32,487 nt of DNA from an uncultured bacterium (GTDB taxonomy: Bacteria; Cyanobacteriota; Vampirovibrionia; Gastranaerophilales; Gastranaerophilaceae), in NCBI GenBank assembly GCA_902783785.1, contig CACZSH010000047.1, positions 1-32,487 on the forward strand, in the 5' to 3' direction. A program made the translations under genes and the position numbers. Under the pieces are notes generated by a model. It had not been told where the DNA came from. It made no database searches and saw only the letters and a list, made by a program, of their open reading frames with translations. Positions 26,368 to 30,315 of this stretch are shown here, piece by piece (position 1 is the first letter of the stretch; each line of letters begins with the position of its first letter).

Positions 26368-28956
26368 ATGAAATATCAATTTCTTAACTTTTTTTTAGAG
26401 AGAAAAGATTTATTAAAACAAAATTCAGATATGATAGACCCATTTCTGTTAGAAAATAATAAGGAAAACTTAGAGTCCTTTTATGATTTTTATGGAAGTG
26501 ATACTCCTATATTGTTTGTTAACGGTTTTATGGGAACAGGTAAAAAGCAGATTGTAAACTATTCTTTGAATTTTTTGTCAAAAGAATCTCTTGTATTGTG
26601 GTATAACTGCTTTGAAACAACTATTTTAGATGATATTTTACTTGTGTTTTTTAATGAATTTAGAAAGCTGCAAACTCAAGGTATTCTTGCACCACTAAAA
26701 ACAAAAACTGAAAATTTTACGGCGAAGATAAATGCTTATTTTACTTCTATTGAAAAACCAATTATTATTATTTTGAATTCTTTTGATTCAATTCAAAAAG
26801 AAAATGTTGCGGAAATTGTTGATTTTATTAATCACGTTATAGGTTTTGAAAAAATAAAAGTTATTGTTGTTTCACGAACCTTGGATAGAAAAATATTTAC
26901 TGATGATTCTAAATATGAAAGGATTACTCTTTCTGCTTTAGAAAAGAACTTGTTTGAAAAGTTTTTAAAACAAAGAAAGATTTCTTTATCATCATCTTTG
27001 CTCGAAGATTTATATAAACATACAAGAGGGTATTATTTTTATACATCCATAACTGCAAGTATTTTAAAGTATAAAAATCTTGATGTAAAAGATTTTATGG
27101 AAAGTTTTAAATTAAGTTTTCTTAGTTATAATAAATACTTAGAAAAAGAAATTATAGATATAATTCCTGCAATATCTGTTCAATTCTTTTGGTTATTGTG
27201 TTTATTGAGACATGGTGTTACAACTCAAATTTTAAAACAATTACACTATTATAATGAAGAGAATATTGAATTTTTAACCGGTAATCAGTTATTGATTCAA
27301 AATAACGGATTGATTTTTGTTCATGATTATTTTAGAGAACAAATGGATATATCTATTCCGGATAATGTTGCTCAAAAGCTTCATAAATTTATTATTGATT
27401 TTTATGAAAGTCAACTGCCGTTAAAGCCTTTGGAAAGAGGGGTTTTACTTTCTCGTCAAACAATAAGAAATGAAATTGAATATCATACTTTGTTTTTGCC
27501 GAGAAAAACTGAAGTAAATCCAAATGCATACAAAGCTATGGCAAGAGGACTAGATTATGATTTGTCGAGATTGAAACAGAATAAAGACAGTCAAAGAAAT
27601 GAAAACGATGAACAGCACAATACTACTCCTCAAGTAGATAATAAACAAAATAATCCTGATTATATATCAACTGTTACGCCTAACGTATCAAATATTGACA
27701 TTAATTTGAGTAATTTGCCGTTTAAACTGACAGAAGATGAATTAAAATTATTGAATGTTTCAACACCTAGTAAAAATTTGTCTGAAAGAATGCAGTCTTC
27801 TATAAATATTGATGTACGAAGAGATGATAATGAAGGTGTTGTAGAAATTAAACAAGAAGAAACTACGGATTCTTTAGCTTATTATTTAAAATTGGCAAAA
27901 TCTGAGGAATCAAAATATAATTATAAACTGGCATGTGAATTGTATAAAAAAGCTTTAACGTTTACTGAAGATGAACAATATAAAAATCTTCTTCCTAAGA
28001 TTTATACAAAATTGGCATTTGGATGCCATAAATTATCAGAAATAGATAATGCTTTAAAATATTATAATCTTGCTAAAGATTGTTATGCACAAAGAGATGA
28101 AAAGATAAAGGAAAATTATATCAAACTAAGTATTGCAAATGTTTATTATGAAACATATAAACTTGATTTGGCGAAGAGTACTTTGTTAGAGATAATTAAT
28201 ACACAAGGAAATCCTCATATCTTAACAACAAAGACATATATTGCCCTTGCTAATATTGAAGATAGCTTGTCTAATACGAATGCTGCATATGATTATTATA
28301 AAAATGCTTTGGAATTATCTAATACAACTATGGATACAGAAACATTATCAGAACTATATTTTAAATATGCACTAATATCTGATGACAAGAATGATATTAC
28401 GACTGCGATTGAATATTATGAAAAATGTATAAATATAAATAAAGATCCAAAAGTAAATAAGTTTTTATCGTCAGCATATTCTAATATTGCAACTTTGTAT
28501 TTAGAAAAAAATGATAATGCGATTGCAGTTAAAAACTTCTTACAGGCTTATCAAATTGATGAAAGTAATCAGAATTATGACGGAATGTATTTTTCTGCTA
28601 CAAAATTAGCTCAAGTAATGCAACGGAAATTACCGGATAAAGCTGTTTATTACTTTAAAAAAGCAAAAGAATGCGCAAAAAAATTAAATGATATTTTCTA
28701 TCAAGCTTCATCTTTATTAGCTTTTGGCGATTTCTACTATGCTCAAAAACAAGATGCATTAGCTTTAAATGAATATTTTGAGGCTTTGGATTTGGTTAAA
28801 AATGATTTTTCAAAGGATAATATAAACAAAATTGAAATGCGCATAAACGATATAAAATTCCGTCTTGGCCATGATAAATTTACGGTAATAGAAAATGAGT
28901 ATAAATTTAGAAAAGCAGAAGCTCAAAAAGAACAACAAAATAACGAAATTCAGTGA
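26368..28956 (+). CDS. large P-loop NTPase-like protein with C-terminal TPR array
   Basis: The 862-residue protein has an N-terminal region (about 45-330) built like a STAND/AAA-type ATPase. A Walker A-like GFMGTGKK (53-60, Lys59) has Lys where Ser or Thr is normal, and a Walker B-like IIIILNSFDSI has Asn for the first Asp, followed by VIVVSRTL (sensor-like Arg). A winged-helix-like part follows (about 270-345). A disordered, Asn/Gln/Asp-rich linker (about 385-475) leads to TPR repeats from about 490 to 840 (LACELYKKALTF, NALKYYNLAKDCYAQ, TAIEYYEKCINI, LALNEYFEAL). Probably a scaffold or signalling switch with impaired hydrolysis. No Shine-Dalgarno is seen. It overlaps rsmG by 62 nt. Confidence 0.8.
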   Translation: MKYQFLNFFLERKDLLKQNSDMIDPFLLENNKENLESFYDFYGSDTPILFVNGFMGTGKKQIVNYSLNFLSKESLVLWYNCFETTILDDILLVFFNEFRKLQTQGILAPLKTKTENFTAKINAYFTSIEKPIIIILNSFDSIQKENVAEIVDFINHVIGFEKIKVIVVSRTLDRKIFTDDSKYERITLSALEKNLFEKFLKQRKISLSSSLLEDLYKHTRGYYFYTSITASILKYKNLDVKDFMESFKLSFLSYNKYLEKEIIDIIPAISVQFFWLLCLLRHGVTTQILKQLHYYNEENIEFLTGNQLLIQNNGLIFVHDYFREQMDISIPDNVAQKLHKFIIDFYESQLPLKPLERGVLLSRQTIRNEIEYHTLFLPRKTEVNPNAYKAMARGLDYDLSRLKQNKDSQRNENDEQHNTTPQVDNKQNNPDYISTVTPNVSNIDINLSNLPFKLTEDELKLLNVSTPSKNLSERMQSSINIDVRRDDNEGVVEIKQEETTDSLAYYLKLAKSEESKYNYKLACELYKKALTFTEDEQYKNLLPKIYTKLAFGCHKLSEIDNALKYYNLAKDCYAQRDEKIKENYIKLSIANVYYETYKLDLAKSTLLEIINTQGNPHILTTKTYIALANIEDSLSNTNAAYDYYKNALELSNTTMDTETLSELYFKYALISDDKNDITTAIEYYEKCININKDPKVNKFLSSAYSNIATLYLEKNDNAIAVKNFLQAYQIDESNQNYDGMYFSATKLAQVMQRKLPDKAVYYFKKAKECAKKLNDIFYQASSLLAFGDFYYAQKQDALALNEYFEALDLVKNDFSKDNINKIEMRINDIKFRLGHDKFTVIENEYKFRKAEAQKEQQNNEIQ

Positions 28957-29524
28957 GATATTTTTAGAAAAAAATAAAGTTATAAATCTTATCAGTAAAA
29001 ATGATGAAAAAGTTTTATTTGAAAAGCATATTTTTGACAGTCTTGCAATATCGTATTTCTTTGAAAAATATAATATAACTCCAAATGGTTTAACGCTGCT
29101 TGACATTGGTACCGGTGGAGGTTTTCCTGCTGTGCCTATTGCAATTAATTATAAAGATTTAAATGTTGTCGGTCTTGATAGTATAGCAAAAAAAATCAGA
29201 GCAATAGAGGAATTTAAACAGGAATTACAACTGGATAATCTTACGCTAATTAATGATAGAGCCGAAAATATACAAACAGAATATGATATAGTTGTAAGTC
29301 GTGCAGTTTCTAAATTAAGTAAAGTTGTACAGTATGCAATGCCTTTGTTAAAAAGTGGCGGTTATTTTGTTTGTTATAAATCTAAATCAGCATTTGATGA
29401 AATACGAGAAGCAAAAGATATTATTTTAAAAAATAAGGCGGAATTTTTAGAGGTTATAGAGTATAAATTACCATTGGAAGAAAATTTTGATAGATTTTTA
29501 GTTGTTGTTAAGAAAAAGTTTTAG
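28895..29524 (+). CDS. rsmG: 16S rRNA (guanine-N7) methyltransferase
   Basis: RsmG (GidB) methylates N7 of G527 in 16S rRNA. The SAM-binding motif is LLDIGTGGGFPAVPIAI, followed by VGLDSIAKKIRAIEEF. The segment VVSRAVSKLSKVVQYAMPLL and the C-terminal GGYFVCYKSKS are characteristic. Length 209 is close to normal. The ATG overlaps the previous gene by 62 nt. That gives a short N-terminus (residues 1-18 are Lys-rich) ahead of the conserved FLEKNKVINLISKND helix, so the start is plausible. Translational coupling with the TPR gene is implied. Confidence 0.95.
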   Translation: MSINLEKQKLKKNNKITKFSEIFLEKNKVINLISKNDEKVLFEKHIFDSLAISYFFEKYNITPNGLTLLDIGTGGGFPAVPIAINYKDLNVVGLDSIAKKIRAIEEFKQELQLDNLTLINDRAENIQTEYDIVVSRAVSKLSKVVQYAMPLLKSGGYFVCYKSKSAFDEIREAKDIILKNKAEFLEVIEYKLPLEENFDRFLVVVKKKF

Positions 29525-29537
29525 TATTGGTACTTTT

Positions 29538-29681
29538 TTATATCGACAATAGCCGTAGTGCAATTGATGGAGTTTGGTTGGCTTGGGCAAGCAAGCTTGC
29601 TGTGGTTTGCTGCAATATCTGTGATTTGATAAAATTACTGCTTTCTTTGGCCATATCAGCATCTTTCACAACAGATAGCAT
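29538..29681 (-). pseudogene. flagellin C-terminal remnant
   Basis: On the minus strand, 47 codons ending at TAA (29540-29538) encode VKDADMAKESSNFIK, SQILQQTTASLL and LAQANQTPSIALRLL. These are the hallmark of the flagellin C-terminal D0 helix, whose consensus is ...SQILQQxxxSxLAQANQxPxxxLxLL. Upstream, homology stops within a few codons of the ATG (about 29681). The D1/D2 domains and N-terminal helix are absent, and heptamer repeats (29707-29734) lie just beyond the break. It sits on the same strand as, and downstream of, the rod operon. A short antisense frame over the same bases should not be annotated. Confidence 0.85.
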
Positions 29682-29706
29682 AGCTATCTTAAAATCCTTG
29701 AATGTT

Positions 29707-29734
29707 AGTAGTGAATGGTGAATTGCGAGTAGTG
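29707..29734 (+). repeat. degenerate heptamer tandem repeat
   Basis: Four consecutive seven-base units read AGTAGTG, AATGGTG, AATTGCG and AGTAGTG. An inverted counterpart, CTATTCACTATTC, follows at about 29739-29751, so the block could fold back on itself. It lies at the break point of the flagellin remnant. Confidence 0.6.
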
Positions 29735-29785
29735 TTTTCTATTCACTATTCTTACATTTGTACGTTGTAAATATTATAAAAATAA

Positions 29786-29809
29786 GGACTTTATCTTGTG
29801 ATAAAGCCC
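29786..29809 (-). terminator. intrinsic terminator of the rod operon
   Basis: On the minus strand GGGCTTTATC (29809-29800), loop ACAA, and GATAAAGTCC (29795-29786) pair with one G-T wobble. They are followed by TTATTTTTATAA, a U-rich tail. It lies about 65 bp downstream of flgC and before the flagellin remnant. Confidence 0.75.
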
Positions 29810-29823
29810 TTTGTGTAGAAAGA

Positions 29824-29874: not shown

Positions 29875-30315
29875 CTATTTGCCAATTTCAGCCGCTTTAA
29901 GAGCCATTGCTTTAGAAATGTTTAAAACGGCTAAGTTGGCTTCATATGCTCTTTGAGCAAGCATTGCATCTGCAATATCAACCATAGCATTTACGTTAGA
30001 ATTTCTTATATATCCGTTTTCATCTGCATCCGGATGACCAGGTTTGTAAATTTTTTCACCTAAAGTAGGATCTTCCACAATTCCATTAAAACTAACTCCG
30101 CCTTCAAGGGTTCCGCTGCCTGACATAAATCCGCTTTGCATTGAACCCATTATTCCTGCGAAAGAAACACCGCCGTTTTCGGCATTTAACATAGGGATTT
30201 TTCTTACGTAATTTGGTGTATCAACGTTTGCTACGTTCTTTGCGTGAACATCTAATCTGTGACCATGTACTTTTAGGGCATTTGCGCCGATATACATTGA
30301 ATCCATTATACCCAT
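29875..30315 (-). CDS. flgC: flagellar basal-body rod protein FlgC
   Basis: FlgC is a proximal rod subunit exported by the flagellar type III system. The N-terminal rod signature KNVANVDTPNYVRK is present, as is the C-terminal RAYEANLAVLNISKAMALKAAEIG, which together form the D0 coiled coil. The 146 residues match the family. The middle is rich in Gly, Ser and Met (FAGIMGSMQSGFMSGSG), slightly unusual. A strong ribosome-binding site (GAGAGGAAA on the minus strand) precedes the ATG. It is the last gene of the rod operon, 33 nt after flgB. fliE, often next in other bacteria, is absent. Confidence 0.94.
   Translation of the reverse strand: MGIMDSMYIGANALKVHGHRLDVHAKNVANVDTPNYVRKIPMLNAENGGVSFAGIMGSMQSGFMSGSGTLEGGVSFNGIVEDPTLGEKIYKPGHPDADENGYIRNSNVNAMVDIADAMLAQRAYEANLAVLNISKAMALKAAEIGK

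Follow-up and report, generated by a model that had tools for sequence, protein, structure and literature searches.

A probable remnant of a truncated flagellin gene copy between the rsmG-like and flgC genes of a Gastranaerophilaceae genome

A flagellin 3′ fragment of 162 bases was found between two unrelated genes in the window (the whole 32,487-nucleotide stretch that was analysed), and is probably what is left of a flagellin gene copy that was truncated recently and no longer functions, that is, a pseudogene remnant. The earlier note had already described it as the remnant of a flagellin copy, and this description held, as near-complete paralogs are present in the same genome and the fragment is joined to a flagellin upstream block in the manner of a copy that has lost its middle. 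Duplication would have brought a flagellin gene and its upstream region into the rsmG–flgC interval, where a single illegitimate deletion (about 2.3 kb, 1-bp microhomology) would then have removed the promoter-proximal region together with the N-terminal and central domains. This two-step history is a reconstruction, because no genome with an intact gene at the site was found and one other species of the genus was compared.

The fragment and its surroundings

The 47-codon minus-strand frame reported in the earlier note was present exactly where it had been placed (Table 1). The reading frame is also open upstream of its ATG, the longest open frame being 66 aa, and flagellin homology starts at position 29699, upstream of the ATG, which is therefore an internal Met codon. 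At the other end, homology to flagellin stops at the stop codon or just beyond.

Table 1. Features at the rsmG–flgC interval of the window
Feature	Coordinates	Strand	Basis or remark
rsmG-like 16S rRNA methyltransferase gene (presumed), converging on the remnant	28895–29524	+	Named by recognition, with no profile search behind the name
Flagellin 3′ remnant, GLUG-type; last 54 codons, stop counted (KDFKIAMLSVVKDADMAKESSNFIKSQILQQTTASLLAQANQTPSIALRLLSI and stop)	29538–29699	-	Flagellin_C, paralog DNA alignment, codon comparison
47-codon frame of the earlier note, product MLSVVKDADMAKESSNFIKSQILQQTTASLLAQANQTPSIALRLLSI	29538–29681	-	ATG internal to the flagellin frame, no true start
53-bp palindromic heptamer block	29699–29751	-	100% over 53 bp to C49:897-949
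About 26 bp between terminator and block	29752–29777		Unmatched elsewhere in the genome and at the sister site
Intrinsic terminator of the flagellar rod operon	29784–29811	-	Terminator scan; conserved in the sister species
flgC (taken to be, by recognition), last rod operon gene, intact	29875–30315	-	94% identical to the sister copy

In a Pfam profile search the fragment matched Flagellin_C with 46 bits (E 6e-12; score cut-off 23 bits), and it was also above the cut-off in a search of the whole genome, a signal far beyond chance. The flagellin D0 C-terminal signature that had been read from the letters was thus borne out by the profile match on which the earlier reading had been made to depend. 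The match covers only profile positions 44–86 of 86, less than the full-length domain of a functional flagellin. Flagellin_N was not detected at the fragment, its matches in the genome being confined to contigs C49, C14 and C97, and the fragment has no N-terminal or central domain, as the earlier note had stated. The loss of the start and of essential domains is as in a truncated duplicate. As the fragment has neither an N-terminal D0/D1 region nor an evident translation signal, it should yield no filament protein. An RNA family search gave no score near the gathering threshold.

The stop codons of the remnant and of the convergent gene, which is presumably rsmG and has relatives in 144 of 146 genomes, are 13 bp apart. 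On the other side, the remnant lies beyond the operon terminator, as the earlier note had stated. The sister species (G001; contig CADCPD010000004.1, isolate RUG14857), the sole other species of the genus compared, carries the same rsmG and flgCB genes (84–94% identical protein) and the same terminator. The gene content, together with the rumen source that the isolate name hints at, would point to Gastranaerophilales. However, its rsmG–flgC interval contains neither block nor fragment, only a short terminator–rsmG spacer, so that the intact flagellin copy which the earlier note had proposed to look for in a related genome was not found there. As flgC adjoined rsmG at none of the 28 other rsmG loci read in the family, there is no outgroup from which the ancestral state of the sister's empty site could be decided. 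Nevertheless, the empty site in the sister species and the presence of paralogs elsewhere in the genome favour a gain in the window's lineage, either of a full copy followed by deletion or of directly inserted pieces.

Flagellin paralogs and the age of the truncation

The draft genome (G000; 1.78 Mb, 122 contigs, 97% complete) was searched by query, and five Flagellin_C matches were found, in C71, C113, C96 (at the contig start), the fragment and C97. The 391-aa frame in C97 is probably the hook-filament protein FlgL, judging from its length and weak scores. The ends of C49 and C14 and the starts of C71 and C113 share the same exact 50-bp overlap inside a flagellin gene, indicating two full flagellin genes that were not threaded by the assembler through their common stretch. 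The N-terminal halves are on C49 and C14 and the remainder on C71 and C113, and the central region of both paralogs includes GLUG repeats (PF07581). C96 carries another kind of flagellin gene, whose 3′ end is 86% identical to the single ordinary flagellin seen in the sister species.

GLUG (PF07581) flagellins were recorded at L016:3-1661 and L017:3-1604, where the central domain additionally gave a weak IgA-protease N-terminal-like match; none of the papers searched contained both "flagellin" and "GLUG". In both GLUG flagellins of the genome (C14: L086, L010; C49: L085, L009) the ribosome-binding site GGAGGTGATG is complementary to the early Asn-Ile-Thr-Ser codons ACATCACCTC. By folding, the start-region hairpin is predicted to reach about -21 kcal/mol, with z scores of -5.3 and -4.9, and it could hide the start site until opened.

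The search of the genome for complete flagellin genes and comparison of their 3′ ends, as the earlier note had advised, yielded two near-complete paralogs. DNA identity of the fragment is 93% over 182 bp to C113 (G000:C113:1443-1622) and 92% over 162 bp to C71 (C71:1500-1661), such near-identical longer relatives in the same genome being a mark of a truncated duplicate. Immediately past the stop codon, similarity to the paralogs falls away, and a short gapped extension to C113 is weak. Over the 162 coding bases, the fragment differs from C113 at 7 positions and from C71 at 13, and C113 and C71 differ from each other at 14. The codon differences are synonymous in 6 of 7 cases against C113 and 12 of 13 against C71, and the predicted product has the residues of both paralogs except for one at the broken edge.

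Selection on the small frame was considered, as the mostly synonymous pattern resembles constraint, and was rejected. When changes were assigned by lineage, only three belonged to the fragment, two of them synonymous and the other a nonsynonymous replacement of Ser by Phe in the third codon past the break, with the rest in the intact genes, and the pattern thus reflects selection on those genes and not on the fragment. Three unique changes, one of them nonsynonymous, are too few to tell whether selection has been relaxed. So small a number does indicate that the fragment is young, and the truncation is recent compared with the split between the paralogs.

Compared with the GLUG flagellins on C49/C14 and C71/C113 (Pfam PF00669 / PF00700), the remnant has the same D0 residues, 92–96% DNA identity over the last 162 bp and the same upstream block, but is without the start region, the N-terminal D0/D1 region and the GLUG central domain, and it begins only partway into the C-terminal profile. 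It resembles bacterial truncated-duplicate pseudogenes in being a partial 3′ copy with no start, in its intergenic place and in the few changes since truncation. There is no essential difference from these, though the retained upstream block makes the deletion here unusually readable.

The upstream block and the junction

The block directly adjoins the fragment and consists of an imperfect palindrome (GAATAGTGAAT ... ATTCACCATTC) and two adjoining ATTCACY units, with a folding z of -4.5. The "heptamer repeats" of the earlier note are thus repeat sequence adjoining the fragment, as claimed, but form a single 53-bp palindromic block with two such units. A repeat-finding search alone listed nothing at the block. 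On C49, about 470 bp separate the block from the flagellin start codon downstream of it, and the C14 flagellin has a diverged version of the block at the corresponding upstream place. The 13-base block core, GTGAATAGAAAAC, has three exact occurrences in the genome, upstream of both flagellin genes (C49 and C14) and in the window.

In the sister species, related palindromic heptamer blocks with 80–90% identity separate genes other than flagellin genes (L081:1561-1600, L082:1902-1955, L083:906-957), and in another genus the exact core separates two tandem flagellin genes (L129:472-484). The repeat family is dispersed in the genus, but in the window's genome it is a marker of the regions upstream of flagellin genes. 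The block is 100% identical to its C49 copy, whereas the coding part differs from its nearest paralog at 7 of 162 bases, a rate at which about 2 differences would be expected in 53 bp. An exact block beside a diverged coding part would be compatible with a common origin, and would fit separate origins too.

Read in the flagellin orientation, the window contains the terminator, 26 unexplained bases, the 53-bp block, flagellin codons and a stop. A full flagellin locus consists of the block, about 470 bp, the start codon, a gene of about 1.8 kb, the matching codons and the stop. The order and orientation of block and fragment are those of the flagellin locus minus about 2.3 kb, and by calculation one deletion of that size, with 1 shared base at the join, converts the full layout into that of the window. 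The earlier note had proposed loss by deletion or repeat-mediated rearrangement. The fragment does have the appearance of a gene copy that has lost its middle; however, homologous recombination between heptamers was rejected, as no heptamer is present at the 3′ breakpoint, which falls within codons, and the two sides of the join have only a single base pair in common. The exact junction was not found in viral contigs.

The site may never have held a full gene, if joint copying of 53 bp of flagellin upstream sequence and the 162-bp 3′ end, through template switching in the course of repair for instance, produced a partial-duplication insert. The empty sister site, the absence of any trace of other parts of a flagellin gene, and homology that ends near the stop codon and is flanked on either side by unexplained bases would all suit such an event. 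It is nonetheless rather unlikely, as one deletion in a full copy explains the colinear order and orientation at least as simply.

An assembly or binning artefact, in which the contig joins unrelated pieces via the 53-bp exact repeat, is improbable. The assembly does break at flagellin genes with exact 50-bp overlaps, and the block is exact and close to this length. However, both flanks are syntenic with the rsmG–flgC neighbourhood of the sister species, the C49 side is colinear with the C14 paralog through the same block, the fragment includes bases present in neither paralog, and a false join would be needed twice.

Other possible roles and recurrence in the family

The earlier note had also suggested that the fragment could be a donor cassette recombining with an intact flagellin gene elsewhere; with expressed genes, such a role would serve antigenic or phase variation. 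At 92–96% DNA identity with two genes at their 3′ ends, the fragment could take part in gene conversion. However, the fragment holds conserved D0 codons only and no variable domain, and since its product is the same as that of the paralogs but for the edge Ser-to-Phe residue, conversion would not vary the filament. The archived vmp pseudogenes of relapsing-fever Borrelia are an example of a silent-cassette antigenic variation system (PMC11977308). The likeness is in an incomplete gene copy apart from the expressed gene; the fragment differs in being single, without a variable region, and the same in protein sequence as the intact genes. The alternative variable sequence of a silent cassette is thus missing.

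Recurrent cassettes were not found in the lineage either. In a sample of 17 family genomes from 17 other genera, none of the 94 Flagellin_C matches was an interior orphan, away from a contig end. Three short matches above the cut-off (frames of 48, 54 and 72 aa) begin at contig bases 1, 2 and 7. A cassette role is accordingly very hard to credit, and the fragment is a one-off accident rather than a system. There is likewise next to no likelihood that rsmG readthrough gives, in the tail of the rsmG mRNA, a putative antisense RNA to the flagellin 3′ end able to pair with and regulate the two GLUG-flagellin mRNAs: fragment and rsmG converge, the fragment ending 13 bp from the rsmG stop codon, and a terminator scan found no plus-strand terminator between them, but the fragment is not conserved in the sister species and its changes are too few to reveal selection.

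Contigs of several drafts begin inside flagellin C-terminal codons (G000:C96:1-170; G030:C19 and C20; G006:C11), making flagellin counts in such drafts unreliable. Flagellin_C was also present in very long open frames of 1191 to 3249 aa in several family genera (G033:C1:138514, G039:C1:27549 and C11:4777, G025:C16:5612, G017:C28:13820), possibly giant flagellins or in-frame neighbours. Literature searches on Gastranaerophilales flagellin, GLUG flagellins and flagellin pseudogenes or gene conversion returned nothing on this case.

The remnant of a truncated flagellin gene copy is ordinary in kind and reveals no new mechanism. It warns that a lone Flagellin_C match is not to be counted as a flagellin gene, and it records one flagellin copy loss in a lineage where several genera have many flagellin paralogs.
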